Origin: Rhizobiaceae bacterium
GTDB lineage: Bacteria > Pseudomonadota > Alphaproteobacteria > Rhizobiales > Rhizobiaceae
NCBI GenBank assembly: GCA_017640615.1
Contig: JAEPQK010000004.1
Location: 186,001-250,000 of the forward strand
DNA length: 64,000 nt
Direction: 5' to 3'
Part shown: positions 4,079 through 57,200 of the stretch, one piece after another
How positions within the stretch are numbered: the first letter of the stretch is position 1
Layout: each line of letters opens with the position of its first letter
Notes under the pieces: model-generated
Databases searched by the model: none
What the model saw: the letters and a program-made list of their open reading frames with translations, nothing else
Told to the model about the DNA's origin: nothing
Program-made: the position numbers and the translations under genes

Positions 4079-4186
4079 TGTAGGCTGCCGCCAGCGCCCG
4101 GCGAGTGCGGTATTGCGCCGGCAAACCCTTTACGCATTGTTTACAGCCGAAGCGTACCCTTCGAGGGGCTTTGCTGGGGAATGCCC

Positions 4187-5454: not shown

Positions 5455-5534
5455 CCGCCGCCAACCTGGCCTCCATCGTCGACTTGTTTCTCGACGCAGG
5501 TCGGCACAGCTTGAACCTAGTGACGGAGCACGCT

Positions 5535-6791: not shown

Positions 6792-6841
6792 GCAATAGAT
6801 TGGCGGTCGGACCCCTCGCGTCCGGCCGTCCAGGTTCATCA

Positions 6842-12608: not shown

Positions 12609-14632
12609 TTCCCCTGCATTCTGGTGAGGGACAGATGTCCGCCCGTGATCATCTCGACGGTCCAGTCCGGGGGCACGAGCGTTGTCGTCGTGCCTTCCTC
12701 GATGATTGCCGGGCCTTTTACCTTGTCGCCGGGTTTGATGGCGTTCCGGTCGATAATGGCTGTCTTGAGCGGATCGCCGCCGAAAAAGACGTCACGCTCG
12801 CGCGCCGGTTTCGGTGCTTCGGCAACTGGTGGCGCGTTATCCGGTCTGGGCAGGCGCCCTAGCGCTGCGACCCGGATATTGGCCATTTCAACCCTGCCTT
12901 CCGGACTTGAATGCCCGTACTGGCGCTCATAGGCCAAATCGAACGAGTGCCGCACGGCGTTCATGTCGATAGGTCCTTCGGGGACCGGAATGGTCAGCAC
13001 GTACTCCTGTCCATAGTAGCGAAAATCGATTGCGCGCTCGAAGCCGATTGCGTCCTGCGCGATGCCCTCGCTGCGCAGATAGTCGCGTCCGCGCTGCTGG
13101 AGCCCTTCGAATGCCTGATCGAGCGTCTCGGGCTCAAGCAAATCCCAGAAACCGTAGAGCGTTTCCTTGAAATCGTGGCGGACGTCAGTCTGGAGCATGC
13201 CCCAGGCCGAGAATGCGCCCGGATGAACGGGAATGATCACTTCGCCTATCTGCAACTCCTCGGCGAGCGCAGCCGCTTGCGCCGGACCGGCGCCGCCAAA
13301 GGCGACGAGAGAGAAATCCCGCGGGTCGATACCGCGCCGGATGGTGATGGTGCGGATGGCGTCCGCCATTTTGGCATTGACAATGTCGACCACGCCCTGG
13401 GCCATCGCTTCGGCCGTCATCTCAAATCGCTGACCCATCTTACCGAGCGCCTCAGCTGCGGCCCCGCGATCCAGCGTCATTTCTCCGCCGGAGAAGTTGG
13501 CGCCATCAAGTCGGCCCAGCACCAGATTAGCGTCCGAGACGGTCGGCTCCGTGCCACCGAGGCCGTAGCAAACCGGGCCCGGGTTTGAGCTGGCAGATTG
13601 TGGCCCGACGCGCATTGCGCCCGCTTCCTCCCAGGCGATCGATCCGCCTCCTGCTCCGATAACGTGAATGTCTACGACCGACATCTGGACAGGCAGGCCT
13701 TCGAGTTTGGTTTCATTTGAGCCGGAAGGACGACCGTCAATGATCAAACTGGCGTCGAATGACGTGCCGCCCATGTCGACGCAGATGAGATTTGGCCGCC
13801 CCGTTGTTGCCGAAAGCGCCTTTCCGCCAATGGCCCCGCCCACAGGGCCGGAAAGCAGAGTTTGGAGAGGGGCCTGGCTGGCGGAGCCTGCGCTCATCAC
13901 GCCGCCATTCGATTCCATGACATGAATGCCCTGGTCCTCGGGGAGACGATGGTTGAGCTCGCCAACCAGCGTTTCCAGATAGCGCCGGACGACCGGAGCC
14001 AGATAGGCATCCATCACTGTGGTGGACGTGCGTTCGAATTCGCGCCACTCCGGAGAGACCTGATGGGAAAGCGCTATTGAGACCCCGGGCAGGCGCTCGG
14101 AAAGATATTCAGCTGCCTGCAGTTCATGGGCCGGATTCTTGAACGCAAACAGGAAGCAGATCGCGATTGCTTCATAGCCACCGTCTTTGACAGCCGTTGC
14201 GAAGGCATCGAGATCGGTAAGCGAGAGCGGCTCGACTACTGTGCCGTCTGCGGCGATGCGCTCGCATGCCGTGTAGGTATGTTCAAGCGTGGCGAGCGGC
14301 TCAGGCTTGTTCCAGCGGATGGAAAAAATCTCGCCTCGGTCGTTGCCCTGGATTGTGTAGATGTCGCGAAAGTTCTTCGTCGTGAGCAGGGCGATCTTTG
14401 CGCCGCGCCGTGTCAGGAGGGCGTTGAGGCCGACCGTCGTACCGTGCACGAAGAAATCGATCCCGGCATCAGGCTCGATTGCTGCCTCGATACCCTTGAG
14501 AACGGCCAGCGCCGGATTCTCAGGCGTCGAGAGCACTTTGAATGCTCCGCACGAGCCGGTCTTGGCATCCTGATAGACAATATCTGTGAATGTCCCGCCA
14601 ATGTCAGCGGAGACCCGGTAGTTCTTAGCCAC
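12605..14632 (-). CDS. hyuA: HyuA: hydantoinase A / 5-oxoprolinase family ATPase subunit
   Basis: GTG 14632 is chosen because it gives the normal start AKNYRVSADIGGTFTDIVY and has AGGG at good spacing. An in-frame upstream extension to 14746 runs through a hairpin and is unlikely. The 675-residue protein has the N-terminal phosphate-binding ADIGGTFTD (9-17), the VHGTTVGLNALLTRRG motif, LSHQVSPEWREFERTSTT and the C-terminal actin-like LICVDMGGTSFD and VAFGGAGPAQA. It supplies the ATP-binding half of the HyuAB enzyme. Located between the solute-binding protein and hyuB. Substrate could be a hydantoin, oxoproline or other lactam. Confidence 0.92.
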   Translation of the reverse strand: MAKNYRVSADIGGTFTDIVYQDAKTGSCGAFKVLSTPENPALAVLKGIEAAIEPDAGIDFFVHGTTVGLNALLTRRGAKIALLTTKNFRDIYTIQGNDRGEIFSIRWNKPEPLATLEHTYTACERIAADGTVVEPLSLTDLDAFATAVKDGGYEAIAICFLFAFKNPAHELQAAEYLSERLPGVSIALSHQVSPEWREFERTSTTVMDAYLAPVVRRYLETLVGELNHRLPEDQGIHVMESNGGVMSAGSASQAPLQTLLSGPVGGAIGGKALSATTGRPNLICVDMGGTSFDASLIIDGRPSGSNETKLEGLPVQMSVVDIHVIGAGGGSIAWEEAGAMRVGPQSASSNPGPVCYGLGGTEPTVSDANLVLGRLDGANFSGGEMTLDRGAAAEALGKMGQRFEMTAEAMAQGVVDIVNAKMADAIRTITIRRGIDPRDFSLVAFGGAGPAQAAALAEELQIGEVIIPVHPGAFSAWGMLQTDVRHDFKETLYGFWDLLEPETLDQAFEGLQQRGRDYLRSEGIAQDAIGFERAIDFRYYGQEYVLTIPVPEGPIDMNAVRHSFDLAYERQYGHSSPEGRVEMANIRVAALGRLPRPDNAPPVAEAPKPARERDVFFGGDPLKTAIIDRNAIKPGDKVKGPAIIEEGTTTTLVPPDWTVEMITGGHLSLTRMQGK

Positions 14633-14661
14633 GGTGTTCACCCTAGAAGATCTGGAGGCAG

Positions 14662-14683
14662 GCCGGGGCGTTTTCGCCCCGGC
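14662..14683 (-). terminator. intercistronic hairpin after the binding-protein gene
   Basis: GCCGGGGCG (14662-14670), a TTTT loop and CGCCCCGGC (14675-14683) form a perfect 9-bp GC-rich stem between the binding-protein stop and the hyuA start. There is no T run on the minus-strand downstream side, so it may act as a partial terminator or an RNA-stability element. Such an element would keep the binding protein more abundant than the downstream enzyme and transporter. Confidence 0.6.
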
Positions 14684-14693
14684 GTCCGAAAGT

Positions 14694-15686
14694 TTACTGA
14701 GCCCACTCGCCCTTGAAGTCGGGATTTGCGTCCAGCACAGCTGCATCGATCATCGCGTCAAGCGGACCGGCGGTGTCCATATTGATGACCTGCTTCACAG
14801 GCTTGCCTTCGATGGCATTGATAACCTGTTCGGCCGCGAGCGCGCCCATGGTCTTGGGAAAGTATGCCAGGGTCGCGTCCCAGCGTCCCTCGCGGATGGC
14901 GTCAATGGCAATCGATGCCGCGCCGCCACCGGACAGGTAGAGGTCGGACACGGTATAGCCGGCGGCCTCTAGCGCAATTTCTGCGCCGACGAGATGCTGA
15001 TCCGCATTGGACAGAACAACGTGAACATCGCTGGCCGACTGAAGAATGTCGGTCATCGCCGTCAGAGATTTGTCCGGATCGTACCAGCCTTCGCCGACAG
15101 CCAGCACTTTGATGTTCTCGTGCTCGCCAAGTACCTTCTCGAAGGTCTCAAGGCGCAGATTGTCGAACGGGAAGATCTTTGCGCCAATCAAGATGATGAC
15201 ATTGCAAGGATCGCGCCCTTCGCATTCTGAAACCACGGCATTTGCCTGAACCGTTGCCCCGTCAACCGGCGGCGAGGCGACAGTAGCCGTGATGCCTTCT
15301 ACCTGCGGTTCAAGCGTTGTCAGGTCCGGACCGACAGGGAAGAGGACCGTTGCGATCGGCGTGTCCGCAGCGATCACCTGCTCGAATGCACCGGCGATAC
15401 CGACCGTGTCATTCGGGGCAACGATAAAGCCGGCATAGTTGCCGCCGGCCAGCGCATCCTCGATCTGGCTATATTGATGCGCGGGATCGAACTTGCCGTC
15501 GAAGATGGCCGCTTCGTATCCGAGCTCTTTCGCCCTTTCCTCCACGCCGGCATAGGTCGCCTGATTAAAGCCGTTCTGCGAAGAGGCGGCGAAATAGGCA
15601 ATCTTCTTCGACTGAGCGTCTGCAACAGGTACGAGCGCCATCGCGAGCCCGGCCCCCAGCGCCAGTGATTTTATAGTCCTTAACAT
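14694..15686 (-). CDS. ribose-type ABC transporter substrate-binding protein
   Basis: The start at 15686 has GGGAGG seven bases upstream and gives the signal peptide LRTIKSLALGAGLAMALVPV ending ADA-Q. The 330-residue product is a type-1 periplasmic binding protein (RbsB/LacI-like fold): KIAYFAASSQNGFNQATYAG, YAGFIVAPNDTVGIAGAFEQ and VVLSNADQHLVGAEIALEAAG are visible. It captures the substrate for the ABC transporter encoded at the far end of the operon. It is divergent from the GntR gene at 15767, with only 80 bases between them, so that regulator probably controls it. Confidence 0.9.
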   Translation of the reverse strand: MLRTIKSLALGAGLAMALVPVADAQSKKIAYFAASSQNGFNQATYAGVEERAKELGYEAAIFDGKFDPAHQYSQIEDALAGGNYAGFIVAPNDTVGIAGAFEQVIAADTPIATVLFPVGPDLTTLEPQVEGITATVASPPVDGATVQANAVVSECEGRDPCNVIILIGAKIFPFDNLRLETFEKVLGEHENIKVLAVGEGWYDPDKSLTAMTDILQSASDVHVVLSNADQHLVGAEIALEAAGYTVSDLYLSGGGAASIAIDAIREGRWDATLAYFPKTMGALAAEQVINAIEGKPVKQVINMDTAGPLDAMIDAAVLDANPDFKGEWAQ

Positions 15687-18410: not shown

Positions 18411-19412
18411 ATGACCCCATTCGCCATCGCCGGCATACAGATGTACGTCAATGCGCTGCAACCCAACGTAGAGGGAATGCTGCACCGGCTAGATATATTG
18501 ATGGCGCGGTTTCCCTGGACGCAGATGGTCGTGTTCAGCGAACTTGCGCCATTTGGTCCGCTCACCAAATTCGCACTGCCGCCCGAAAACGAAACGCTGA
18601 TGCGCTTTAGGGAGGCGGCTCGGAAGCACAATGTCTGGCTCGTACCAGGCACCATGTTCATCCGCGGTGAGGACGGCCTCGTCCGGAACACCGCGCATGT
18701 GATCTCGCCGGATGGCGATACAGTCGCAACCTACGCCAAGATGTTCCCGTTCCGCCCTTATGAGGCGGGTGTCGCGGCGGGAACCGAGTTCTGCATCTTT
18801 GACGTTCCCAATGTCGGCCGTTTCGGTCTGTCCATCTGCTACGACATCTGGTTTCCCGAAACGACAAGAACGCTCACCGCACAGGGTGTCGAGGTTTTGC
18901 TTCACCCCGTGTTGACGGGCACTACCGATCGCGACGCCGAACTCGCGATTGCGCGCGCAACGGCGGCGCAGTTTCAGTGCTACGTCATCGACGTAAACGG
19001 CCTTGGCGCCGGCGGGAACGGACGTTCGGTTTTTGTCGATCCATCGGCGACGGTGATGCACCAGTCCGCCGGTCAGGAGGACATGTTCCCGATGGAAATC
19101 GACCTGGCGTTGGTTCGCCGGCAAAGGGAAACTGGGTTGAAGGGCCTTGGCCAGGTGCTCAAAAGTTTCCGCGACCGTGAGGCCGACTTCGCAGTCTACG
19201 ATCGCTCATCGGGGCTCGATACCTACCTGAGATCGCTTGGTCCGCTCCAGGTGCAGGGTCAGGGTTCGCGCGCTGGATTGGAGCAAGACCTGCGTACCGG
19301 ACCTTATGACGATTTCGAGCTGCAGCCGGTCTCCAAGCAACAAGAGCCGCATCAATTCAAAGGGGCAGAGGAAATCCCATCGCCTGAACTGAACAGAACT
19401 GGGTCTGGCTAA
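18411..19412 (+). CDS. carbon-nitrogen hydrolase (nitrilase superfamily)
   Basis: This 333-residue protein has the complete nitrilase catalytic triad: E44 (VFSELAPFG), K110 (TYAKMFPFRPYE) and C143 (LSICYDIWFPET). The superfamily hydrolyses nitriles, amides or N-carbamoyl groups in the cytoplasm. The C-terminal 60 residues (after LKSFRDREADF) extend beyond the core and look poorly conserved. AAAGGA precedes the ATG at good distance. It is 36 bases upstream of the PLP decarboxylase gene, so it is likely part of the same operon. An N-carbamoylputrescine amidase-like role would fit an amine pathway, but the triad alone does not show substrate. Confidence 0.88.
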   Translation: MTPFAIAGIQMYVNALQPNVEGMLHRLDILMARFPWTQMVVFSELAPFGPLTKFALPPENETLMRFREAARKHNVWLVPGTMFIRGEDGLVRNTAHVISPDGDTVATYAKMFPFRPYEAGVAAGTEFCIFDVPNVGRFGLSICYDIWFPETTRTLTAQGVEVLLHPVLTGTTDRDAELAIARATAAQFQCYVIDVNGLGAGGNGRSVFVDPSATVMHQSAGQEDMFPMEIDLALVRRQRETGLKGLGQVLKSFRDREADFAVYDRSSGLDTYLRSLGPLQVQGQGSRAGLEQDLRTGPYDDFELQPVSKQQEPHQFKGAEEIPSPELNRTGSG

Positions 19413-19448
19413 CGGCCGACCCGGGAGGATCGCAGAACGGAGGACATG

Positions 19449-22184
19449 ATGCACAATATGAGTGACTACTATTCCGCCGTACAGCTGCGATCGGATCGTT
19501 GGAGTGACCTGCGCGGCGCATTGGAGTCACTGGCGCGTAACCCCGAGGGGCGTGACGCGAAGCGCCACCGGGAAAAGATATCCAAGCTTTTCGAAGCGCT
19601 CGAACCGATTGAAGCCTATTGGGCGTTCCCCGGCATGTCGGCGTTCGAGCATATGCGTCGGCAGTTCGACAATGGTCATGTGCATGATGTGGCGTTTGCC
19701 GCGCGACGGATCACCCGCGCTCTCCTGACAGGCGCCTACCGTCGCCGCTCGATTCCACTCGAACGCGAGGGAGTCGACACCGAGGAGCACGAGGATGAAG
19801 CTACGCTGTCGCCGGAAGCGCGGGCCCTCTCCAAGCCCTACTTCGAAGTTCTGATTGTTGACGACGTCAACGAGCATCAGGAACGTTTTCTCCGTCAGTC
19901 GGTGAATGCCATGCGCCGGCCGGAAGATGCGTTCATTTATGAGCCCGTCGTCGTCCCTTCACTGCAAGACGCCCTGATTGCGATACTTTTCAATCACAAC
20001 ATTCAAGCGATCGTCGTACGACCGGGGTTGAAGCTCGAATCGCGGCTGGAGCTTCCCATTCTGACCCGCTACCTCAACCGGGCTGGCGGCGAGGAAGTCA
20101 CCGAAGATATTGCCCCTGAAGACCTCGGGCCGGAACTATGCCGGCTAATTGCTCGGGTCAGGCCTGAGCTGGACGCATACCTGGTGACCGATCGGTCCGT
20201 CGAGGACATTGCCGGTCTCGACCTCGGGATATGCCGCCGAGTGTTCTACAACCAGGAAGACTTCATGGAGCTGCACCTCAACATCATCAGGGGGGTGCAG
20301 GCGCGCTACAAGACGCCGTTCTTTACGGCGCTCAAGGACTATTCGAAGCAACCCACGGGCGTCTTTCACGCAATGCCGATATCGCGCGGCAAGTCGATCT
20401 CGCGTAGCCACTGGATACAGGATATGGGCGCATTTTACGGGCCCAACATCTTTCTGGCGGAGACCTCCGCGACATCGGGCGGCCTGGATTCGCTGCTCGA
20501 ACCCCATGGACCGATCAAGCAGGCGCAGGAGCTCGCCGCGCGCGCCTTTGGCGCCAAGCAGACCTTCTTTGCAACGAACGGCACCTCGACCTGCAACAAG
20601 ATCGTTGTGCAGGCCTTGGTCAGGCCCGATGACATCATCCTGGTCGATCGAGATTGTCACAAGTCACACCACTACGGCATGGTGCTGGCGGGCGCGCAGG
20701 TCTGCTATCTCGATAGCTATCCCCTGAACGAATACTCCATGTACGGCGCGGTTCCTCTGCGCGAAATCAAGCATAAGCTTTTGCAGTTGAAGGCCGCCGG
20801 CAAGCTTGATCGCGTCCGCATGCTTTTGCTTACAAACTGCACGTTTGACGGCATCGTCTACAATGTCGAACGTGTGATGGAGGAGTGTCTGGCAATCAAG
20901 CCCGACCTGATATTCCTTTGGGATGAGGCGTGGTTCGCGTTCGCCCGCTTTGGGCCCACCTACCGCCAGCGCACAGCCATGAACGCCGCCTCGAACCTCC
21001 GCGCGCGGCTGCGCACTGATGAGCATCGGAAAATCTGGGAGAAGCAGCAAGACAAACTCCAGGACGCCGATGACGAGGTGCTGCTCAAAACCCGGCTTCT
21101 GCCGCCGCCCGATGCGCGTATTCGTGTTTATGCCACGCAGTCGACCCACAAGACGCTGACGTCGCTCCGCCAGGGTTCGATGATCCATGTGAACGATCAG
21201 GATTTCAAAGGAGAGGTCGAGCAAAGCTTCCACGAAGCCTATATGACGCACACCTCGACGAGCCCGAACTATCAGATCATTGCATCGCTCGATGTCGGCC
21301 GCAGGCAGGTGGAGCTCGAGGGCTTCGAGTTTGTCCAGCGGCAAGTCGAGGCGGCAATGTCCATGCGCCGCGCTATCTCGACACATCCGCTCCTGCAAAA
21401 ATATTTCAAGGTTCTGACAGCTGGCGACATGATACCGGCGGAATACCGGGAAAGCGGCGTGGAAAGCTATTACAGCCCGGAGCAGGGCTGGACCGATATC
21501 TGGAATTGCTGGGACAAGGATGAATTCGTGCTCGATGCGACCCGCGTTACGCTTGCGGTCGGAGGCACGGGCTGGGACGGAGATACATTCAAGACCCAGA
21601 TATTGATGGACAAATACGGCATTCAGATAAACAAGACCTCGCGCAATACCGTCCTGTTCATGACGAATATTGGCACAACGCGCTCCTCGGTCGCTTACCT
21701 GATCGAGGTCCTGGTGGAGATCGCTCGCGAGCTGGACGATCTTCTCGACGACGCTTCCAAGATGGAAAAACTCGGCTTCGACCGTCGAGTGCGGGCCTTG
21801 ATGCAGGACCTGCCGCCTCTGCCGGATTTCAGTCGCTTCCACGGGGCGTTCTGCGCCGACGCGAAAACGGGCGAGGGCGACATGCGCTCCGCCTTCTTCC
21901 TGAGCTACGATGAAGAAAACTGCGACTACCTGGAGCTCGGGTCGGAGATCGACAAGGTGATGGACGACGGTCGCGAGGTCGTTTCAGCCTCGTTCATTAT
22001 CCCCTATCCGCCCGGTTTTCCGATCCTTGTGCCCGGCCAGGTAGTTAGCCGGGAAATACTCGCCTTCATGCGTGCACTCGATGTGAATGAAATTCACGGG
22101 TACCGCGCCGATCTGGGATTGCGTGTTTTCACCGACGAGGCGCTCAGCCGCCAATCGGGTAAGTTTGCCGCCGCCGCTGAATAA
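19449..22184 (+). CDS. Orn/Lys/Arg-type PLP-dependent decarboxylase, 911 residues
   Basis: ATG 19449 has GGAGG five bases upstream; ATG 19446 is also possible. The protein has a receiver-like N-terminal wing (EVLIVDDVNEHQERF) and a fold-type I core: ATNGTSTCNKIVVQALV, DRDCHKSHHYGMVLAGA, D492 in FLWDEAWFAF and the PLP lysine K568 in QSTHKTLTSLRQGSM. A C-terminal domain ends in IIPYPPGFPILVPGQVVS. It should decarboxylate a basic amino acid to a di- or polyamine in the cytosol. At 911 residues it is longer than typical 710-760-residue members, with a larger N-terminal region. It is followed after 11 bases by an ATP-grasp gene, so the amine may be a building block rather than an acid-stress product. 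Confidence 0.9.
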   Translation: MHNMSDYYSAVQLRSDRWSDLRGALESLARNPEGRDAKRHREKISKLFEALEPIEAYWAFPGMSAFEHMRRQFDNGHVHDVAFAARRITRALLTGAYRRRSIPLEREGVDTEEHEDEATLSPEARALSKPYFEVLIVDDVNEHQERFLRQSVNAMRRPEDAFIYEPVVVPSLQDALIAILFNHNIQAIVVRPGLKLESRLELPILTRYLNRAGGEEVTEDIAPEDLGPELCRLIARVRPELDAYLVTDRSVEDIAGLDLGICRRVFYNQEDFMELHLNIIRGVQARYKTPFFTALKDYSKQPTGVFHAMPISRGKSISRSHWIQDMGAFYGPNIFLAETSATSGGLDSLLEPHGPIKQAQELAARAFGAKQTFFATNGTSTCNKIVVQALVRPDDIILVDRDCHKSHHYGMVLAGAQVCYLDSYPLNEYSMYGAVPLREIKHKLLQLKAAGKLDRVRMLLLTNCTFDGIVYNVERVMEECLAIKPDLIFLWDEAWFAFARFGPTYRQRTAMNAASNLRARLRTDEHRKIWEKQQDKLQDADDEVLLKTRLLPPPDARIRVYATQSTHKTLTSLRQGSMIHVNDQDFKGEVEQSFHEAYMTHTSTSPNYQIIASLDVGRRQVELEGFEFVQRQVEAAMSMRRAISTHPLLQKYFKVLTAGDMIPAEYRESGVESYYSPEQGWTDIWNCWDKDEFVLDATRVTLAVGGTGWDGDTFKTQILMDKYGIQINKTSRNTVLFMTNIGTTRSSVAYLIEVLVEIARELDDLLDDASKMEKLGFDRRVRALMQDLPPLPDFSRFHGAFCADAKTGEGDMRSAFFLSYDEENCDYLELGSEIDKVMDDGREVVSASFIIPYPPGFPILVPGQVVSREILAFMRALDVNEIHGYRADLGLRVFTDEALSRQSGKFAAAAE

Positions 22185-22195
22185 GGGAGGACAAG

Positions 22196-23656
22196 ATGGC
22201 CGCTAAGGAACTCAAGAATATTTCCGAAATTCGCCGCTTCTTCCACCGGAACGAAGACCCGATCTATTTCGTGTCCGCGACAAATTTCAATCTGCTCGGC
22301 ATCGATGAATGGTGTAAGAATTTCAAATACATATGCTATATCGACTGTTACGACGGTCGACACCCCAATGTGTTCTGTCCCTCCGAGCAGCCGCACGCTG
22401 AGTTCCAGTCTATCGAAGACATCAACAATTACCTTCTCCAGCACAAGGAGGTCATCGATTATGTTCGGCGGCGCGGCGGCAGGCCGAAATTTGTCTTCCT
22501 CATGTTCGATGAGGAAACAGAGCGTCTCGCCAAGGAATTGGGAGGCGACGTCTGGTTTCCCAAGGCGAAGCTGCGCACCAAGATGGACAACAAGATCGAA
22601 ACCGTGCGCGTCGGCAACAAGGCCAAGGTACCGTCCGTGCCGAACACGCTGGCCGAGGTCGACAGCTATGACAGCTTGACAAAAACCTGCGCGAAAGCCG
22701 GGCTTGGCAGCGATCTTGTCTTGCAGTCCGCGTTCGGCGATTCAGGCCACACAACATTCTTCATCAAGTCCGAAGCGGATTTCCGCAAGCATGAACATGA
22801 GATCGTCGGTCAGGGCGAAATCAAGATAATGAAGCGCATCGACTGCCGAGGTTCGGCGATTGAGGCCTGTTGTACGTCCCAAGGTACGATTGTCGGTCCG
22901 CTGATGACCGAGTTGGTTGGGTTCAAGGAACTGACCCCCTATCGCGGCGGCTGGTGCGGCAACGAGATATTCTCGACCGCCTTTCCCCCGAAAGCACGCC
23001 AGCATGCGCGCGATTTGACGTTCAAGTTCGGCGAGCAGCTCAGGAAGGAAGGCTATCGCGGCTATTTCGAGTTGGATTTTCTGATCGACAAGAAGACGGG
23101 CGATCTCTGGCTGGGCGAACTGAATCCCAGGATTACCGGTGCCAGCTCGATGACCAATCACGCGGCATTTGCACATGCGGATGCGCCGCTTTTCCTGTTT
23201 CATCTACTCGAATTTTCCAAAACGAAATTCAAACTCAGCGTCGATGAGTTGAATGCGCGGTGGGCCGACCCTTCAATGATCGATTCATGGAGCCAGATGG
23301 TCATCAAGCACACGGAAGATTCCGTGGACATTATCTCGCAGGCGCCACAGACGGGCATCTACAGAATGCTCGATGACGGCAGCGTCGTTTACGACCGGTT
23401 CGACTACCACCGTCGCGCGGTAGAGAGTGAATCCGAGGCGTTTTTCTTGCGTATCCTGAAGGAAGGCGACTACCGCTATGAGGGTGCCGATCTGGGCATC
23501 CTGGTCACGCGCGGCCGCTCCATGACGAGCGGTTTCAAGTTGAACGAACGCGCCAAGCGCTGGATTCACGGAATAAAGCAGGCCTTCTCTGCGAAGCCTC
23601 TGCCGGTCGCAGAAGCAGGACCTGCTCTAGCCGATCCCGCGTTCAAGATATTGTAA
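22196..23656 (+). CDS. ATP-grasp ligase (carboxylate-amine ligase-like)
   Basis: This 486-residue protein shows ATP-grasp features: an A-domain lysine-rich segment (KLRTKMDNKIETVRVGNKAK, about 125-144) and a glycine loop VLQSAFGDSGHTTFF (about 175-189). It also has metal/ATP residues in GYFELDFLID and the diagnostic E308-L-N310-P-R312 of GELNPRITGASS. Such enzymes activate a carboxylate as acyl phosphate and couple it to an amine or thiol; databases often label this type biotin carboxylase-like, but no biotin partner is present. GGGAGG precedes the ATG. Position after an amine-forming decarboxylase suggests an amide-forming ligase; that is inference. Confidence 0.85.
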   Translation: MAAKELKNISEIRRFFHRNEDPIYFVSATNFNLLGIDEWCKNFKYICYIDCYDGRHPNVFCPSEQPHAEFQSIEDINNYLLQHKEVIDYVRRRGGRPKFVFLMFDEETERLAKELGGDVWFPKAKLRTKMDNKIETVRVGNKAKVPSVPNTLAEVDSYDSLTKTCAKAGLGSDLVLQSAFGDSGHTTFFIKSEADFRKHEHEIVGQGEIKIMKRIDCRGSAIEACCTSQGTIVGPLMTELVGFKELTPYRGGWCGNEIFSTAFPPKARQHARDLTFKFGEQLRKEGYRGYFELDFLIDKKTGDLWLGELNPRITGASSMTNHAAFAHADAPLFLFHLLEFSKTKFKLSVDELNARWADPSMIDSWSQMVIKHTEDSVDIISQAPQTGIYRMLDDGSVVYDRFDYHRRAVESESEAFFLRILKEGDYRYEGADLGILVTRGRSMTSGFKLNERAKRWIHGIKQAFSAKPLPVAEAGPALADPAFKIL

Positions 23657-24648
23657 TGGAGTTGGTCTGGCGAACCTTCGCCGAAGCGGAGCCCGGAGAA
23701 AAATGGGCCGCACTGTTCGCTGAATACTGGCCTGACTACCGGATGTGGTGGCTGAAGGAAGGGGAGCAAGCGCGCCCCACCTTTTTAGAGTGTCGGCGTG
23801 CCCTCGACCGGCACATGCCCGAATTGCTTCCCCTCTACGAACAGCTTTGCAGGCTGGCGGGCGGAGGCGATCTCGCAGCGCGCTTCCTGTCCTTCTACCG
23901 ACCCCCGGCTTATCTTTCGGGCTGTAGCCAGGCGATTTGGCCCGGCGAAGAGCCGACCCTGGTGCGCAACTACGACTATCATCCGGCCGCTTTCGATAGT
24001 CTGGTGATGTCAACGTCGTGGCAGGGAAGGCGTGTCATTGGCACGTCCGACGGGCTGTGGGGGCTTGTTGATGGCATGAATGACGCCGGACTTGCCGTGT
24101 CGCTCACATTTGGCGGTCGCACGGTGGTCGGCGACGGCTTCGGCGTACCGCTGATCTTGCGGTATGTCCTGCAAACCTGTCGCACGGCCAGGGAGGCAAG
24201 CGAGGCGCTGGCTCGGGTTCCAACTCACATGAGCTACAACGTCACCGTGCTGGATGCCGAGCGCAACTTTCTAACAGTGCTGCTCGGCCCCGATCGCCCG
24301 GCTGCTGTCACCCATGCGGCTGTCGCGACCAATCATCAGGAGCGCGTGGAATGGGAAGCGCACGCCCGCATGACGGCAACCGTCGAGCGGGAACGTTTCC
24401 TGTTGCAGCGGCTGACGCTGCATGTGGAACCCCAGGAAAAGTTCATTGGGGCATTTCTCAAGCCGCCAATCTATTCCACGGCATTCGACCGTGGATTCGG
24501 GACACTCTATACGGCGGTATATCGCCCCAGGCAGGGTGAAATGGAGCTGCGATGGCCGCGTGCCGTGTGGCCGCTTTCCTTTAGCCGGTTCAAAGAAGAG
24601 ACGCGGCGTATTTACACCCCTGACTCGATGATGGACGGGGTAAGCTGA
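23656..24648 (+). CDS. C45-like Ntn hydrolase (acyl-CoA:6-aminopenicillanate acyltransferase family)
   Basis: This 330-residue protein matches the C45/AAT family. A linker domain precedes G-C90-S-Q, the expected autocatalytic nucleophile, followed by the family signature LVRNYDYHP. Further on come GLVDGMNDAGLAVSLTFGGR, GFGVPLILRYVLQTC and TNHQERVEW. Family members self-cleave before the Cys and then hydrolyse or transfer acyl groups on amides. Its ATG overlaps the TAA of the ATP-grasp gene (TAATG), so the two are translationally coupled. It may trim, transfer or degrade the product of the ligase. Substrate unknown; family call good. Confidence 0.87.
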   Translation: MELVWRTFAEAEPGEKWAALFAEYWPDYRMWWLKEGEQARPTFLECRRALDRHMPELLPLYEQLCRLAGGGDLAARFLSFYRPPAYLSGCSQAIWPGEEPTLVRNYDYHPAAFDSLVMSTSWQGRRVIGTSDGLWGLVDGMNDAGLAVSLTFGGRTVVGDGFGVPLILRYVLQTCRTAREASEALARVPTHMSYNVTVLDAERNFLTVLLGPDRPAAVTHAAVATNHQERVEWEAHARMTATVERERFLLQRLTLHVEPQEKFIGAFLKPPIYSTAFDRGFGTLYTAVYRPRQGEMELRWPRAVWPLSFSRFKEETRRIYTPDSMMDGVS

Positions 24649-25408: not shown

Positions 25409-26791
25409 ATGAACTTATCAGGAACACAGACCGAAGCGGAGGGCGGGGATCGACCTCGCAGCTCTGCTATCGAGGCCGCAGGCAAGGCGCTACAGATCGA
25501 GTATCTAGGCCTTAGCGACCTGAAGCCGTATCGCCGTAACTCTCGAAAGCACTCGCGCAAGCAGATCCGCCAGGTGGCACAGAGCATGCGCGAGTTCGGC
25601 TTCACCAATCCGATTCTGATTGATGAGGACTGCACCATCATTGCCGGCTATGGCCGGCTTGAGGCTGCCAAGCTCAATGGAATGACCTCGGTTCCCTGCG
25701 TGCGCATTGGCACGATGACTGAGGCCCAGAAGCGCGCCTATGTGATTGCCGACAACAAGCTCGCGCTGAACGCTGGGTGGGACGATGAGATACTGGCCGA
25801 AGAGCTTAAGGCCTTGCTCGATGTTGAGATCAGCTTCGACGTCGAACTGACCGGCTTCTCGATCGCCGAGGTTGATAGCCTGGTCGAAGGCCTTGTGCCC
25901 GAAGAAAAGGGCGATCCGCGGGCCGATGCGCTGCCCCCGCTCGATCACAGTTCGACCCGCTGTCGGGTCGGTGATGTGTGGCAGCTTGGTCCGCACCGAC
26001 TGGTTTGCGGCAATGCGCTTGATCCGGTGGTGGTGGGGACCCTGATGGACGGTGACGTTGCACGGATGGTCTTTACGGATCCACCGTACAACATTCCTGT
26101 CCAGGGTTTTGTGGGCGGTGCCGGCAAGGTCAAGCACCGCGAGTTCGCCATGGCCTCGGGCGAGATGACGAATCAACAGTTCACTTCGTTTCTAGCGACT
26201 TCCTTCTCCAACCTCCAGCGCCATTCCTGTGACGGCTCAATCCACTTCGTGTGCATGGACTTCAGGCACATGCGCAACGTGATTGAGGCGGCAGACGGCA
26301 TCTACACCGAACTCAAGAACCTCTGTGTCTGGGTCAAGGACAATGGCGGCATGGGGACCTTCTACCGGTCTCGTCACGAACTGGTCTTCGTCTACAAAAA
26401 CGGCACGGCAGCACATGTGAACTCCTTCGAGCTTGGTCAACATGGGCGCTATCGCACCAATGTCTGGGAATACCGGGGCGCCAATACGCTCAAGGCCGGT
26501 CGGATGGACGAGCTTGCCATGCATCCGACGGTTAAGCCTGTCGATATGATTGCCGATGCGATCAAAGACTGCTCGGCTCGCGGCGAGATCATCCTCGATC
26601 TCTTCGGGGGCTCCGGGTCCACATTGATTGCCGCGCACAAGACCGGGCGGCGAGCCTATCTGAGCGAACTCGACCCCATCTACTGCGACCGTATTCTGCG
26701 GCGCTGGGAGAGCTACGCAAAGGACGAGGCAATCCGCCTCGTTGCCGCAAATGAAGTCGACGCATCGCAACTCAAGGAGGCCGCGCAATGA
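25409..26791 (+). CDS. ParB-domain fused DNA methyltransferase (N4/N6 adenine/cytosine type)
   Basis: Residues 30-135 form a ParB/Srx-like domain (LKPYRRNSRKHS, IIAGYGRLEAAKLNG, AYVIADNKLALNAGWDDE). Residues 180-460 form an S-adenosylmethionine methyltransferase with DPPYN at 224-228, HPTVKPVDMI and then FGGSGST (399-405). The order catalytic motif before SAM motif is that of the beta class. Such ParB-MTase fusions are common in prophages and integrative elements and usually act as orphan modification enzymes; no restriction gene is next to it. It overlaps the DUF5681 gene by 4 bases (26788-26791). Likely mobile cargo. Confidence 0.92.
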   Translation: MNLSGTQTEAEGGDRPRSSAIEAAGKALQIEYLGLSDLKPYRRNSRKHSRKQIRQVAQSMREFGFTNPILIDEDCTIIAGYGRLEAAKLNGMTSVPCVRIGTMTEAQKRAYVIADNKLALNAGWDDEILAEELKALLDVEISFDVELTGFSIAEVDSLVEGLVPEEKGDPRADALPPLDHSSTRCRVGDVWQLGPHRLVCGNALDPVVVGTLMDGDVARMVFTDPPYNIPVQGFVGGAGKVKHREFAMASGEMTNQQFTSFLATSFSNLQRHSCDGSIHFVCMDFRHMRNVIEAADGIYTELKNLCVWVKDNGGMGTFYRSRHELVFVYKNGTAAHVNSFELGQHGRYRTNVWEYRGANTLKAGRMDELAMHPTVKPVDMIADAIKDCSARGEIILDLFGGSGSTLIAAHKTGRRAYLSELDPIYCDRILRRWESYAKDEAIRLVAANEVDASQLKEAAQ

Positions 26792-27597
26792 CTGGAACGA
26801 AACAGTTGCCGGCGATCCCGGCAGAAACGCTCCCGTACGAAGTGGGCTATCGCAAACCGCCGGTCCAGCACCAGTTCGGCAACGGACAGAAGATCAACCG
26901 CAAGGGCCGTCCCAAGGGCTCCAAAAACAAGCAGCCGAAGTTCAACGAGTTGGTTGAGATCACTTTGGAGGAAGCCGGTCGTGACATCGTCGTCACCGAG
27001 GGCGGTCAAAGGGCCGAGATCAGCCGATGGCGCGCGTTCATGCGTCGTCTTTACAGCGATGCCCTTATGGGAAAGTCCCATGCGTCACGACTGTATGCAG
27101 GCCTGGTGACCAATGCGGCTTTGGAAAAGGATCGCCGGCACGAGGAGGGCTTCAAGCATGTGATTGAATTCAAGTTGGGGGCCGAAAAGAGGCTCGAGGA
27201 GTACAAGAAGCGTGGCATTGAGCCACCCAAATTTTTCCTCCATCCCGATCAGTTCGTGCTCGACATCCGCAACGACACCTGGTGGATCGAAGGCCCGCTA
27301 AGCGAGCAGGAGAGGGACGAGTCGATCGCCTTCTATGAAGAACGCCGTAACGAGTGTCAGAGGCTTCTAAAGTTCATTCAAGACCGACTGAGCGAGAGTG
27401 AGCGCGCTCATTCAAATGAGACAGATCCGAAGCTGAGGAAGCGGCTGCAGCGCGACATTGACCAAGACAGGAGCTCCATTGCGACATTCAAGCGGCGCAG
27501 CGAAGAGCTCCTGGAGGCTCTGAAGCCTTGGGGCTTTGTAGAAACGCGGCCGCTTTTGGACGAACAGAAGCCGTCTACCGACACGGGCCAAGGGTGA
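26788..27597 (+). CDS. DUF5681 domain protein
   Basis: This 269-residue protein has the DUF5681 signature near residues 15-50: YRKPPVQHQFGNGQKINRKG, then RPKGSKNKQPKF. The rest is rich in charged helices (for example QDRLSESERAHSNETDPKLR) and could form coiled coil. DUF5681 proteins commonly accompany ParB-MTases in phage-like islands, where a small DNA-binding or packaging-related role has been suggested; function is not established. It is coupled to the methyltransferase gene by an ATGA overlap and followed after 22 bases by a hairpin. Confidence 0.82.
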   Translation: MTGTKQLPAIPAETLPYEVGYRKPPVQHQFGNGQKINRKGRPKGSKNKQPKFNELVEITLEEAGRDIVVTEGGQRAEISRWRAFMRRLYSDALMGKSHASRLYAGLVTNAALEKDRRHEEGFKHVIEFKLGAEKRLEEYKKRGIEPPKFFLHPDQFVLDIRNDTWWIEGPLSEQERDESIAFYEERRNECQRLLKFIQDRLSESERAHSNETDPKLRKRLQRDIDQDRSSIATFKRRSEELLEALKPWGFVETRPLLDEQKPSTDTGQG

Positions 27598-28110: not shown

Positions 28111-29832
28111 TCACGTCTCAAATGCGTGCGGATAATGCTCTTTCGCGTATGCCTCTGAAATGTAGCCATTGCGCAAGTCCGTTCTTACCCGTTCGACCTC
28201 CCGCTCGTTGCTGGGACCGTATCCGCCGCCGCCGCCTGTTCGCAGTGTGAAGACTGCGTCAGACGGGACCGCGAGGCGCGTTACCTTGGAAAAGTCGCGC
28301 TGGCGGCCGTCGGCGTACCTCAGAGACGCTCCGTTCGGTCGCGCTTCGCCGCCGCCGGCCAAACCCCAAGGTGCATTGTGGGCGCGTTCAATGGCAGCCG
28401 TCATGTTGATCTGCTCGGTAAACCGGAACTCGAAATCGATACCCGGGCCGCCACGATACTGGCCTGGTCCGCACGAATCCTGTGCAAGCTCCATGCGCTC
28501 GGTGATCCATGGGTCGCGTTGTTCCCAGACCTCCAGCGGAGTGAAGCGTGTCGCAGACTCGGCGATATGCAGCATAGTGCCGCCGTCACCACCTTTCCAT
28601 GCGCCCTGGCCGACCGGATGCGGCGCTCCGTCAGCCCATGGCTCGCCGGTTCCTTCACGCCAGCCCGAATAGGAGATGCCGAGAATGCAGCCGCCGCTGC
28701 AAGCGGGGACAGCGTCCGGAACGGCCTTGGAAACGGCATTGTAGATGACCTCGATAGCCTGCAGTGCCGGCCAACCGTAGAGGTAGCAGGGAGCGGGCGG
28801 GAGCGGGTGAAACAAGGTGTTTGGCCGCGTGATGACCGTCAGCGCTCGAAACATGCCCTCATTCGGAGGTTCGCCGAATCCGGCCAACATCGAAATTGCC
28901 ACCCGGCTGGCAGACAATGTCGAGGGAACGGGGCAGTTAATGGGACCGCCCTGTGCCGGCGGGGAGTTTGAGTAGTCAAGTGTGACCTGCGATCCCTCGA
29001 CCTTGAGCGTCACCTCAAACGGAATCGGATGATTCTGAACCCCGTTGTTGTCGAGGATGCCCTGACCGACATACGTGCCGTCGGGAATGGATTCGAAATA
29101 CTGCCTCACGACCCGCTCGCCGTGATTGTACATCTCCTCGACGCATGGCCAGAACGTTTCGGTGCCGAAGCGCTGGAACACGCGCTTGAGCGCAATCCCG
29201 CCGGCGCGCACGGCGACAATGGTGGCGTTCATGTCGCCTTCGACCATCTTGGGAATGCGCGAGTTGGCGACCACCATACGGTAGATGTCGCGCACGATTA
29301 CGCCGCGCGCACAAAGCTTCACGCCGGGAAATACGGTTCCTTCCTGGAAGACATCGACGGTATCGGTGCAATAGACATCCTTGGCCCCGATATCGAGCCA
29401 ATGTCCCTTGATTGCCGTGTAGCCAATCAAGCCCACATCATCGTCGAAAACCGGCATTACCATCGCTACGTCCTGCGGGTGCGATCCGGTACCGTAGGGC
29501 CAGTTGTATAGAAGCACGTCGCCAGGCTCGAGCGCCTCCACGCCGCCCACATTGGTTACTGCCTCGCGGATGCAGAAATCGAGTGTGCCCATGAACATTG
29601 GAAGGCTGGGAGCCTGGGCCAGCAGACGAATATCCTTATCATAAATCGCAACGGCGAAATCGAGCACCTCGTAGATCACCGGCGAAAACGCCGTGCGCAT
29701 CAGCGCATGCTTCATCTGATTGGCCGCCGAATTCAGCGCGTGCCGCACCACTTCAGTGGTTATCGGGTCTGCGTGCGTTTCCTTGACCGCTCCGGATGCA
29801 GCTTCGTGTACAATGGGATCATAGGTCTTCAT
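28111..29832 (-). CDS. hyuB: HyuB: hydantoinase B / oxoprolinase family subunit (second copy)
   Basis: This 573-residue HyuB protein contains ADPITTEVVRHALNSAANQM, YEVLDFAVAIYDKDIRLLAQ, LLYNWPYGTGSHPQDVAMV and C-terminal CGPGQYRGGPGIDFEFRFTE and LRTGGGGGYGPS. It differs clearly from the copies at 10902 and in the fused gene, so these are separate paralogues rather than a recent duplication. It overlaps the hyuA gene by 4 bases (29829-29832). No transporter gene is attached to this pair; it stands back to back with the fused HyuA-HyuB operon. Confidence 0.91.
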   Translation of the reverse strand: MKTYDPIVHEAASGAVKETHADPITTEVVRHALNSAANQMKHALMRTAFSPVIYEVLDFAVAIYDKDIRLLAQAPSLPMFMGTLDFCIREAVTNVGGVEALEPGDVLLYNWPYGTGSHPQDVAMVMPVFDDDVGLIGYTAIKGHWLDIGAKDVYCTDTVDVFQEGTVFPGVKLCARGVIVRDIYRMVVANSRIPKMVEGDMNATIVAVRAGGIALKRVFQRFGTETFWPCVEEMYNHGERVVRQYFESIPDGTYVGQGILDNNGVQNHPIPFEVTLKVEGSQVTLDYSNSPPAQGGPINCPVPSTLSASRVAISMLAGFGEPPNEGMFRALTVITRPNTLFHPLPPAPCYLYGWPALQAIEVIYNAVSKAVPDAVPACSGGCILGISYSGWREGTGEPWADGAPHPVGQGAWKGGDGGTMLHIAESATRFTPLEVWEQRDPWITERMELAQDSCGPGQYRGGPGIDFEFRFTEQINMTAAIERAHNAPWGLAGGGEARPNGASLRYADGRQRDFSKVTRLAVPSDAVFTLRTGGGGGYGPSNEREVERVRTDLRNGYISEAYAKEHYPHAFET

Positions 29833-31853
29833 TTCTGGGCTGCTCCACGCGTCAGGATCAGTTCACCCTTCGAGCCGGCTCGGACGGACCAGCCGGCGTC
29901 AACGTAAAGGGTGGTTGTGCTTTCGGTAATGATCACCGGCCCCGAAATCTCGTCGGCGATCGAAGATCGGTCGATCACATCGAAATCGATGTGTTCGCCG
30001 CGACTGAACGAGTAGGCCGACCAGATCGATTTATCCGCGGCCTGCATAGGTGGCGCTGAATGCTCACGGCGCGGCAGTGGAATACGGTTCGTCGCCCGCG
30101 TCGCAACAATCTCGACGTCGAACTCCATCGTGCTTCCATAGGTGCGAACGTAGTCTTCCTCAAACAGGGTCCGGATAGCGGCCGAGGAAGCAGCCAGCTT
30201 GCGGTCAGCGAGCGGGACCGGGATCGAAGGGCCATGCTCCTGCCCGACATAGCGTAGATCCAGACTGGCAAGTCGCTCCAGCGCAGGGTCGGCGAGTTCG
30301 CCGCGGCGGTCGAGTTCACCGAAGAGTTCGGCAAGAACCTTGTTAGTTTCAACGAGGCTTTCGTCGCTTAGCGGCATGATGCGTGTAAGCGCTGCGGATT
30401 GTACCATGTCTGCGCCCAGCAATCCCCAGGCGGAGAAGTTTCCAGCAAGGGGCGGTACCACGATCTTACCAATCTGCAATTCATCAGCGAGTAGGATCGC
30501 GAACATCGGCCCTGCGCCGCCAAATGGAAGCAGGGCCATGCTTCTGGGATCGAGACCTTGCTCTACCGTGATCTCCCGCATAGCGTTCGCCATGCTGGAG
30601 GTGGCAATTCGCATGATACCGACCGCCGTCTCCAGAACGCTCTTACCGATTTGTCCGGCCACATTGCCAATCGCATTTTCGGAAGCGGCGAAATCGAGCT
30701 GAATACCGGAAGCAAGCTTGCCCGGGCCGAGCATGCCCAGATGTGCCGCCGCGTCGGTGGTCGTCGGTTCCGTGCCTCCCTTGCCATAGCAAGCTGGCCC
30801 GGGCACAGCGCCGGAGCTGCGCGGGCCGACACGCAGCAGCCCGCCAATGTCCTTGTAGGCCACCGAGCCGCCGCCGGAGCCGATCGATCGCACATCGACC
30901 CAGGCCGATTGCACCGGCATTCCGGCCACCTCGCCCTCAAAGAGCACCTGCGCCTGCCCGTCCAGTATGAGCGCCGTGTCGAAGCTGGTGCCACCAACGT
31001 CAGCGGTAATGAGCGCGTCGATTTCGAGAGAACGCGCAATCTCCGACCCGCCCTGAGCGCCGCCGACAGGTCCCGACATGATCGTTTCGAACGGGCGCTC
31101 TCCGGCTTCGGCGAACGTCATCGAGCCTGACCCGGACCGCGCGATGAGGCAGCGTCCCTTGAAACCCAGATCGGCGAGGCCTTCCTCAAGCCGCTGCAGA
31201 TAGCTCGACATGCGCGTTCTTACAAAGGCGTCTATTGCGGTCGTGGAGAAGCGCTCATACTCACGATATTCGCGCGACACCTTGTGCGACAGCGAGATGT
31301 CGCCGGTGAAACCATGCTCGCGCAACAGCTCAGCTGCGCGCAGTTCGTGCGCCGGGTTGGCGTAGGCGTTCATGAAACAGATCGCCAGGCTGTCGACGCC
31401 TTCGGCATTGAAATGCTTGACCAGCGCGGCCACTCCCGTTTCGTCCAGCGGGCGGTGCTCGGTTCCGTCGAAAAGGATACGGCCGTCGAGTTCCAGGCGC
31501 AGATAGCGCGGTACCAGTGGTTCTGGCTGTTGCCAGAACAGATTGTACATCTCCGCGCGGTCACCCCGTCGGATCTCCAGCACGTCGCGGAATCCCTTGG
31601 TGCATACCATGCCCACCTTGGCACCTCGACGCTCCAGAAGGGCGTTGAGGCCGACGGTCGTTCCGTGAAGGAAATAGTCTGCCTTGGCGACAATCTCGGG
31701 AGGTACGAACTCGCGGACTGCGTTCAGCACTCCCTGTTCGGGTGCGGACGGGACAGTCGGAAGTTTTCCTTCCCTGGTCTGTCCGGTGTCTTCGTCGAAG
31801 AAAACGAGATCGGTGAACGTGCCACCGATATCGACCCCGATGCGTGTCGCCAT
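29829..31853 (-). CDS. hyuA: HyuA: hydantoinase A / oxoprolinase family ATPase subunit (second copy)
   Basis: This 674-residue HyuA protein starts ATRIGVDIGGTFTDLVFFDE, with GGAGAG a few bases upstream of the ATG. It includes LHGTTVGLNALLERRGAKVG, LSHKVSREYREYERFSTTAI, LITADVGGTSFDTALI and LPFGGAGPMFAILLA. It forms the ATP-binding subunit partner of the HyuB encoded immediately downstream. The 5' side faces a 458-base gap shared with the fused HyuA-HyuB gene. Likely acts in the cytosol on a cyclic amide or hydantoin; substrate not determinable from the sequence. Confidence 0.91.
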   Translation of the reverse strand: MATRIGVDIGGTFTDLVFFDEDTGQTREGKLPTVPSAPEQGVLNAVREFVPPEIVAKADYFLHGTTVGLNALLERRGAKVGMVCTKGFRDVLEIRRGDRAEMYNLFWQQPEPLVPRYLRLELDGRILFDGTEHRPLDETGVAALVKHFNAEGVDSLAICFMNAYANPAHELRAAELLREHGFTGDISLSHKVSREYREYERFSTTAIDAFVRTRMSSYLQRLEEGLADLGFKGRCLIARSGSGSMTFAEAGERPFETIMSGPVGGAQGGSEIARSLEIDALITADVGGTSFDTALILDGQAQVLFEGEVAGMPVQSAWVDVRSIGSGGGSVAYKDIGGLLRVGPRSSGAVPGPACYGKGGTEPTTTDAAAHLGMLGPGKLASGIQLDFAASENAIGNVAGQIGKSVLETAVGIMRIATSSMANAMREITVEQGLDPRSMALLPFGGAGPMFAILLADELQIGKIVVPPLAGNFSAWGLLGADMVQSAALTRIMPLSDESLVETNKVLAELFGELDRRGELADPALERLASLDLRYVGQEHGPSIPVPLADRKLAASSAAIRTLFEEDYVRTYGSTMEFDVEIVATRATNRIPLPRREHSAPPMQAADKSIWSAYSFSRGEHIDFDVIDRSSIADEISGPVIITESTTTLYVDAGWSVRAGSKGELILTRGAAQK

Positions 31854-55710: not shown

Positions 55711-55736
55711 GACGGAGACTCGCTTTCGATTGCTGT

Positions 55737-57155: not shown

Positions 57156-57200
57156 CGTGGGTTCCTCATGAAAACGCGGCGCAACGCGCCGATCATTATT

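Follow-up and report, generated by a model that had tools for sequence, protein, structure and literature searches.

A four-gene cassette of nitrilase, decarboxylase, ATP-grasp and C45 hydrolase genes that may mask and unmask diamino acids for catabolism

What do four enzymes accomplish together when their genes lie packed on one strand of a Rhizobiaceae bacterium contig (GCA_017640615.1, JAEPQK010000004.1, positions 186,001 to 250,000; this whole 64,000-nucleotide stretch is called the window below)? The genes encode a carbon-nitrogen hydrolase of the nitrilase superfamily (NIT), a pyridoxal phosphate (PLP) decarboxylase (DEC), an ATP-grasp protein (ATPG) and an N-terminal nucleophile (Ntn) hydrolase of the C45 type (C45), and the original prediction, made from the letters alone, suggested that they could build a small amide-linked polyamine conjugate and left a catabolic role open. 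We find that the four genes recur together in many genomes, in neighbourhoods that look catabolic in character, and we suggest, at a probability of roughly 0.45, that they are the core of a catabolic pathway that masks and then unmasks diamino acids or diamines (ornithine, arginine-derived compounds or 2,4-diaminobutyrate). The genes and their key residues in the window are as follows:

18411-19412, + strand: NIT, carbon-nitrogen hydrolase (nitrilase superfamily), 333 aa (PF00795, 100.9 bits)
18540-18542, 18738-18740 and 18837-18839, + strand: E44, K110 and C143 of NIT, the Glu-Lys-Cys triad
19446-22184, + strand: DEC, PLP decarboxylase of the Orn/Lys/Arg decarboxylase fold, 912 aa (PF01276, 255.9 bits, cut-off 27)
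21150-21152 and 21630-21632, + strand: DEC K569, the PLP lysine, and N729, which is Glu in lysine/ornithine decarboxylases
22196-23656, + strand: ATPG, ATP-grasp protein of family PRK06524/NF005096, 486 aa (NF005096, 757.6 bits, cut-off 684)
23117-23131, + strand: ATPG motif E308-L-N310-P-R312
23656-24648, + strand: C45, Ntn hydrolase/acyltransferase, 330 aa (PF03417, 114.5 bits; NF040521, 184.7 bits, cut-off 85)
23923-23925, + strand: Cys90 of C45, with a presumed self-cleavage site just before it

NIT and DEC are separated by 33 bases and DEC and ATPG by 11, and the ATPG and C45 genes overlap through a TAATG at 23654-23658. If DEC starts at its second ATG it has 911 aa and the first gap becomes 36 bases, and given that start the four intact same-strand genes are spaced exactly as first described. 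Shine-Dalgarno-like sequences, read by eye, precede the NIT and DEC genes. The claim that the catalytic motifs are intact is borne out by key residues that are invariant among the aligned relatives of NIT, DEC, ATPG and C45.

How regularly do these genes travel together? Among 398 sampled genomes of the phylum, 11 (the window's own included) have an ATPG match above 500 bits and eight exceed the 684-bit cut-off, and the weaker matches resemble, by score and frame length, carboxylase-type ATP-grasp domains. In two further samples ATPG turned up in 10 of 369 genomes (another class) and 14 of 297 (the window's order), and matches with an E value of 1e-60 or better are present in 64 of 201 genomes of a halomonad-like family (belonging to another class and named here from its doe gene order) and in 26 of 69 genomes of one family in the window's order. 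Strong matches are absent from all 16 genomes of the window's own family in the phylum sample (15 have weak ones and one has none), which suggests that the cassette of the window was probably acquired by horizontal transfer.

We examined 138 loci, all fetched for ATPG, which is therefore present by construction, and a gene was scored as present if it matched anywhere in the stretch. In the 90 loci that come from the phylum sample (10) and a genome collection (80, the best 80 of 570 confirmed stretches, mostly Rhodobacteraceae-type), DEC is present in 90, C45 in 89 (the one exception, L061, stops at a contig edge), NIT in 83 and all four in 82, and in the 138-locus set C45 is present in 134, DEC in 125, NIT in 118, DEC, ATPG and C45 together in 124 and all four in 109. 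The decarboxylase, ATP-grasp and C45 trio, whose conserved co-occurrence the original prediction had named as the thing to look for, is thus a regular association and not one that is rarely adjacent in relatives. These loci are partly non-independent: L037 and L121 share a 664,411-base contig and L070 and L177 a 479,430-base contig, each pair being one place fetched twice, and there may be more such cases. The gene order is NIT-DEC-ATPG-C45 in 87 of the 138 loci and NIT-ATPG-C45-DEC in 21, so shared function, not a frozen order, seems to hold the cassette together. None of the four genes is present in any of 20 control regions of 20 kb on cassette-bearing contigs (positions chosen manually and blind to their content), and this, with the recurrence in many genomes, argues that the cassette is not a product of chance. 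For all gene pairs the between-locus distances are concordant (Mantel r 0.80-0.93 with 24 to 42 loci; 0 of 2000 permutations as high) in a test that ignores species relatedness.

Individual loci vary on this theme. L167 has a second C45 gene (14168-15388) right after the cassette, and L183, L184 and L305 have divergent ATPG and NIT genes and no C45 or DEC match in the stretch. L112, on a contig titled Oceanobacillus sp. HTM 045 (a title that may be a mislabel), has cassette proteins 66-83 percent identical to those of the window, with EutB/EutC-like genes adjoining. Cassette genes are also carried by the Rhizobium plasmids L125, L126, L129 and L137, the last about 10 kb from nifA/nifB, and a number of the copies on plasmids of Sinorhizobium and Rhizobium match only in part. 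DEC, ATPG and C45 of L125 adjoin nifHDKEN and are followed by an oligopeptide-type ABC importer and an amidase; L129 has the same cassette genes and importer, but RiPP maturation genes in place of nif.

What else surrounds the cassette? Neighbours were counted in stretches of at least 18 kb, namely 61 of the 80 genome-collection loci, 27 of 30 sampled-genome loci (the short L173, L175 and L179 were dropped) and 8 of 9 plasmid stretches centred on ATP-grasp (all but the 41-kb L137); the decarboxylase- and C45-centred plasmid stretches L130-L136 lie outside these counts and outside the Puu comparison below. The reference proteins were taken from the loci themselves, and each family counts its own source locus. 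A TRAP-TAXI importer (representatives score 355 bits with TIGR02122 and 651 bits with TIGR02123) lies ahead of the cassette in 36 of the 61 genome-collection loci versus none of the 20 controls. Class III aminotransferases are found in 33/61 genome-collection, 9/27 sampled-genome and 1/8 plasmid loci versus 0/20 controls, one of them passing the gamma-aminobutyrate (GABA) transaminase cut-off (550 versus 507 bits), and aldehyde dehydrogenases in 3/61, 9/27 and 2/8, respectively, versus 1/20 controls. Universal stress protein and XRE-cupin regulator genes accompany 23 and 19 of the 61 long genome-collection loci.

Two special settings stand out from these counts. An ectoine-degradation cluster houses the cassette, flanked by doeX and doeC, in all 18 sampled halomonad-like loci (from genomes chosen for being in one or few contigs) and in L035 and L036; DoeB is present in 18 and DoeA in 17 of those 18, and EhuR, DoeA, DoeB, EutB and EutC of L036 pass curated cut-offs. 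Shinella and similar records have ATPG and C45 within an arginine/ornithine operon with AruI, an aldehyde dehydrogenase, a D-amino-acid dehydrogenase (DaDH) and a racemase. The AruI, DaDH and racemase genes are present in six loci (L123, L128, L168, L181, L182 and L304) and DEC in none of them, so that DEC and the AruI route are mutually exclusive at the loci seen; one AruI-type plasmid carries a lone DEC elsewhere. The L123 racemase scores 393 bits with ornithine racemase, below the cut-off of 480, and the agmatinase-like neighbour in L123 is nearest to guanidinobutyrase (3nio, 511 bits, versus 206 for the best agmatinase) and has relatives beside the DEC cassettes of L167 (69 percent identity) and L099 (75 percent). 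Such a gene fits GABA as a shared end point, the mask being an acyl or a natural guanidino group. By the AruI-type operon of L123 there is also a row of genes for NadE, an adenylate-forming enzyme, an acyl carrier protein and AsnB (L123:15981-21443) that resembles a small natural-product cluster.

Do these neighbours recall a known pathway? A screen with Escherichia coli PuuA to PuuE, PuuP and PuuR covered 114 cassette loci (the 61, 27 and 8 above plus 18 of 20 halomonad-search stretches, L304 and L305, of another family, being left out) and the 20 controls. The query families are broad, and with them PuuE-like proteins are found in 59 of the 114 loci (genome-collection 32, sampled-genome 9, plasmid 1, halomonad-like 17; controls 0/20) and PuuC-like proteins in 32 (3, 9, 2 and 18, respectively; controls 1/20), the matches in the halomonad-like loci evidently being DoeC/DoeD. 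PuuR-like proteins are present in 22 loci and PuuP-like proteins in four (controls 0/20 for both), and for three regulators that were scanned PuuR is the best family, at 134.6-143.2 bits, below its cut-off of 211. PuuA, PuuB and PuuD are found in none of the 114 loci, none of the 20 controls and not in the window, and membership in the classical Puu pathway was rejected on this ground. The cassette thus accompanies the flanking half of a Puu pathway and was never found beside the Puu ligase and hydrolase, for which ATPG and C45 would be natural stand-ins. This comparison is the strongest single argument for a mask-and-unmask role, yet it is an argument from neighbourhood.

From the genes, their co-occurrence, their neighbours and their residue changes, all of which are observed, we infer a substrate, a masking group, an order of steps and a part for NIT as follows: ATPG would use ATP to form an amide between the distal amine and a small carboxylic acid, the likeliest being glutamate linked by its gamma-carboxyl, and DEC would then take the alpha-carboxyl off the masked amino acid to give a mono-masked diamine; alternatively, decarboxylation might come first and ATPG would mask the diamine. 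Some bacteria would arrive at the same aldehyde by racemisation, oxidation of the D-amino acid and decarboxylation by AruI. The free end would next be converted to a carboxylate, with no cyclisation of the aldehyde, by a class III aminotransferase and an aldehyde dehydrogenase whose genes adjoin the cassette at only some of the loci, and C45 would hydrolyse the amide to release the mask and GABA (or beta-alanine from diaminobutyrate), GABA going on to succinate via GabT and succinate-semialdehyde dehydrogenase. NIT plausibly clears a carbamoyl-masked substrate or a side product, for instance a gamma-glutamyl amide that has been deaminated. Masking would prevent 5-amino-2-oxopentanoate and 4-aminobutanal from cyclising. 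In the available passages of PMC7268258, the Sinorhizobium meliloti AruI homologue IlvB1 has sevenfold higher activity with 5-amino-oxopentanoate, which agrees with AruI-like enzymes having substrates of the ornithine type. The parallel substrate in halomonads would be 2,4-diaminobutyrate; a lone DEC near ectB (diaminobutyrate transaminase) among transposases on an S. meliloti plasmid (L134:4963-11718) is a second hint at this compound. Under the proposed scheme the amide-linked polyamine conjugate of the original prediction would probably exist as a transient masked intermediate and not as an end product, since the neighbourhoods favour catabolism. A more far-reaching version, in which ATPG and C45 replace PuuA and PuuD in a second, non-homologous Puu-type pathway, the mask goes on before decarboxylation, Rv2531c-like decarboxylases act on N-acylated diamino acids and halomonads gain a second branch of ectoine breakdown through masked 2,4-diaminobutyrate to beta-alanine, we regard as doubtful.

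Are the proteins themselves suited to these tasks? Set against five E. coli decarboxylases, DEC has retained H405, S407, D493, A495, S566, H568 and K569 at the PLP site, and H405, D493 and K569 are present in 24 of 24 family members. In lysine and ornithine decarboxylases the Glu526-type residue contacts the distal amine; this Glu (526 in LdcC/CadA, 532 in SpeF, 524 in SpeC) is replaced by Asn (N729) in DEC and in all 24 family members, and Asn is found at the site in 111 of 112 aligned stretches, the exception with Glu being a different decarboxylase in L094 (28.5 percent identity). At a C-terminal site where the five E. coli enzymes share a Glu (within PGE in four of them and within SGE in AdiA), DEC has Gln as part of a PGQ motif. 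On the strength of the Glu-to-Asn change, identity as a canonical lysine or ornithine decarboxylase is not supported, and the predicted decarboxylation of a basic amino acid holds for the PLP fold and the catalytic residues, while the basic substrate is not secure. S. meliloti SMa0680/SMa0682 were set aside as candidates for DEC, as nothing in the literature passages available ties them to it; SMa0684 is described there as an arginine/agmatine antiporter.

In C45, Cys90 is invariant across 27 aligned sequences, and the closest fold to its structure model (mean pLDDT 93.8) is isopenicillin N acyltransferase (2x1c, Z 29.6, rmsd 3.3, 303 aligned residues); a PDB profile search with C45 gave weak matches to choloylglycine hydrolases only. 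Isopenicillin N acyltransferase removes an alpha-aminoadipate that is held by its side-chain carboxyl, and because an alpha-aminoadipyl amide is much like a gamma-glutamyl amide, glutamate is favoured as the mask. E44, K110 and C143 of NIT are invariant across 20 aligned sequences. The best NCBIfam match of NIT is deaminated glutathione amidase (57.8 bits, far under the cut-off of 355) and it is closest by profile to mouse NIT2 (2w1v, 96.2 bits), which weakly suggests that it may hydrolyse an alpha-ketoglutaryl-type amide, the product that would be expected if the aminotransferase hit the gamma-glutamyl end by mistake. ATPG has E308, N310 and R312 in 42 of 42 family members, and its AlphaFold model has a mean pLDDT of 89.9.

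Several observations weigh against the mask-and-unmask reading, and those that also favour a rival are given with that rival below. The neighbour families were picked because they are recurrent in these loci, so the counts are not blind. Class III aminotransferases are missing from 28 of the 61 genome-collection and 18 of the 27 sampled-genome stretches, and 58 of the 61 genome-collection loci have no aldehyde dehydrogenase match. The closest such pair in the window (54274-57233, - strand; an aldehyde dehydrogenase and a class III aminotransferase, PuuC-/PuuE-like with 34/28 percent identity) is at a distance of 30 kb, and the genome to which the window belongs encodes two strong Peptidase_C26 proteins (the PuuD-type family) elsewhere and no GABA transaminase above the TIGR00700 cut-off. 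Some of the 138 loci pair ATPG with NIT alone or with C45 alone, the cassette DECs do not form one clade in the tree (in which long branches were flagged), and the six AruI loci stem from few lineages.

The rival that survives best, although we think it unlikely, is arginine catabolism, in which DEC would convert arginine to agmatine, the neighbours would lead from there through 4-guanidinobutyrate to GABA, and ATPG, C45 and NIT would be side enzymes, for instance to free arginine from acyl-arginines or to deal with ureido by-products. AdiA also lacks the Glu of the lysine and ornithine decarboxylases (it has T571), so free arginine is, by alignment, a possible substrate for DEC. Guanidinobutyrase-like genes are found with DEC in L099 and L167 and with AruI in L123 (where AruI scores 737 bits, cut-off 500), L128, L168 and L181, and the L167 copy passes the NCBIfam agmatinase cut-off (213.6 versus 174.3 bits) and would instead fit agmatine. 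In addition, the AruI route with guanidinobutyrase already gets to GABA without ATPG or C45. However, the guanidinobutyrase-like gene is missing from 60 of the 61 genome-collection and 24 of the 27 sampled-genome loci, L182 and L304 have ATPG, C45 and AruI without it, and an ATP-consuming ligase would have no evident role in such a route.

Quite unlikely is a biosynthetic operon that makes and keeps an amide-linked amine conjugate (for instance an osmolyte or signal), with the amine from DEC, the amide from ATPG and an acyl group trimmed or transferred by C45. All four enzyme types are compatible with it, many hosts are marine according to their record titles, and in halomonad-like genomes the cassette adjoins ectoine genes. 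On the other hand, the doe genes degrade ectoine and do not make it (PMC3187862, in the passages available), no recurrent exporter or precursor gene was found among the neighbour clusters inspected, and the recurrent neighbours among the families compared are importers, PuuR-like regulators, aminotransferases and aldehyde dehydrogenases. These neighbours favour the catabolic alternative, which is better supported than the biosynthetic one.

Very unlikely, in our estimate, is that ATPG is a biotin-independent N-carboxylase like PurK that would carboxylate an amine or guanidine to a carbamate, C45 and NIT acting afterwards as amidohydrolases. The fold of ATPG is indeed nearest to carboxylases of the biotin carboxylase/PurK type (Foldseek E down to 3.7e-18, Z about 23), which also counts against an amide-forming role. 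A PDB profile search gave mainly carboxylase-type ATP-grasp domains plus carbamoyl phosphate synthetase and PurK; ATP-grasp amide ligases were absent from the 50 structural matches listed, which is not enough to dismiss them. The family name of NF005096/PRK06524 is biotin carboxylase, and annotated records give the cassette enzymes names such as biotin carboxylase and C45 family peptidase. Nevertheless, AccC Q294 and E296, which follow the E-x-N-x-R motif and handle bicarbonate, are replaced by T/S/C and A/I/V in 42 of 42 ATPG proteins, and on this ground a biotin carboxylase function was rejected even though that fold is still the closest. Amine carbamates would be unstable masks, and amide ligases also have the ATP-grasp fold.

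DEC relatives outside the cassette (L131-L133, 48-51 percent identical) adjoin AspT aspartate:alanine antiporters, with an aspartate 4-decarboxylase in two of the three loci and HdeA in one, which hints at acidic substrates there, again adverse to a diamino acid, and suggests an acidic-amino-acid decarboxylase clade in an acid-resistance setting; L133 has two AspT antiporters and no aspartate 4-decarboxylase annotated in its stretch. That DEC serves acid or osmotic stress and its partners are loosely linked passengers has a similarly slim chance in spite of these relatives and of the frequent universal stress protein neighbours, as the AspT-linked DECs form their own clade (SH-aLRT 100) with no ATPG or C45 annotated nearby and the cassette partners stay together despite rearrangements.

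The surroundings of the cassette in the window are as follows. Its 5' neighbours are a GAF protein gene, an M24 peptidase gene and a regulator-like open reading frame (GntR-like, by eye); these were rejected as cassette members, since among 90 loci the M24 peptidase has a single, weak match and the other two have no match at all, and the M24 peptidase has only 22 percent identity with the DoeA region of L035. ParB-like/DNA methylase and DUF5681 genes, perhaps a mobile-element remnant, begin 0.76 kb 3' of the cassette (25409-27597, + strand). Hydantoinase/5-oxoprolinase-like genes lie at 10902-14746 (- strand), 28111-31853 (- strand) and 32273-36124 (+ strand), the last a fused A+B gene by Pfam and the other two A/B-like pairs by eye only; pyroglutamate, which arises when gamma-glutamyl amides break down, would be turned into glutamate by a 5-oxoprolinase. 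At 2960-8344 (+ strand) lie genes for two imelysin-like (M75) proteins, with a di-haem oxidoreductase after the second.

The original prediction did not recognise the set as a described pathway, and likewise we recognised no description of it among the open-licence papers listed by our literature search, which does not prove that none exists; the available passages of PMC6815383, PMC3187862, PMC5924519 and PMC5320631 do not mention the four genes. The cassette occurs through many marine, salt-loving and root-nodule bacteria and looks like an unnamed route for diamine-type amino acids. If the proposed pathway is real, four families gain functions, the enzymes of a widespread ATP-grasp cassette receive roles, the decarboxylase family to which the structurally solved mycobacterial protein belongs gains a testable substrate class, and the nitrogen and osmolyte metabolism of nodule, marine and halophilic bacteria has an unexpected branch, in which a Puu-type job is done by enzymes unrelated to the known bacterial putrescine pathway.

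How does the cassette compare with known systems? The arginine racemase/dehydrogenase route (AruI, guanidinobutyrase) shares a locus with ATPG and C45 in the six loci above, but to our knowledge the route as described has no ATP-grasp or C45 enzymes. In the Ebony/Tan pair, Ebony joins an amine to an amino acid and the C45 peptidase Tan splits the amide, as isopenicillin N acyltransferase cuts an alpha-aminoadipyl amide; unlike the cassette, Ebony is not an ATP-grasp enzyme, and Ebony/Tan and the acyltransferase are eukaryotic and unrelated in pathway. The doe system of ectoine degradation houses the cassette between doeX and doeC in halomonad-like genomes, and DoeC and DoeD are of the enzyme types that the model needs, but DoeA and DoeB are present in none of the 61 long genome-collection loci, and in the Halomonas elongata cluster, as the available passages of PMC3187862 describe it, doeX adjoins doeC with no cassette. 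There doeABX form one operon and doeCD lie outside it, so that the cassette would lie at an operon boundary. The closest solved structure to DEC by sequence is 9n0o (Rv2531c, 841.8 bits over nearly the whole length), and by alignment Rv2531c belongs to the same family and shares the Asn and PGQ motifs; the passages available of PMC12910592 present it as an amino acid decarboxylase without an assigned activity. The likeness to the Puu pathway lies in the predicted masking of an amine, oxidation at the other end and unmasking of GABA, and in the PuuR-, PuuC-, PuuE- and PuuP-like genes near some cassettes, whereas the cassette differs in having an ATP-grasp protein and a C45 Ntn hydrolase in place of PuuA, PuuB and PuuD, and a decarboxylase of its own built in.

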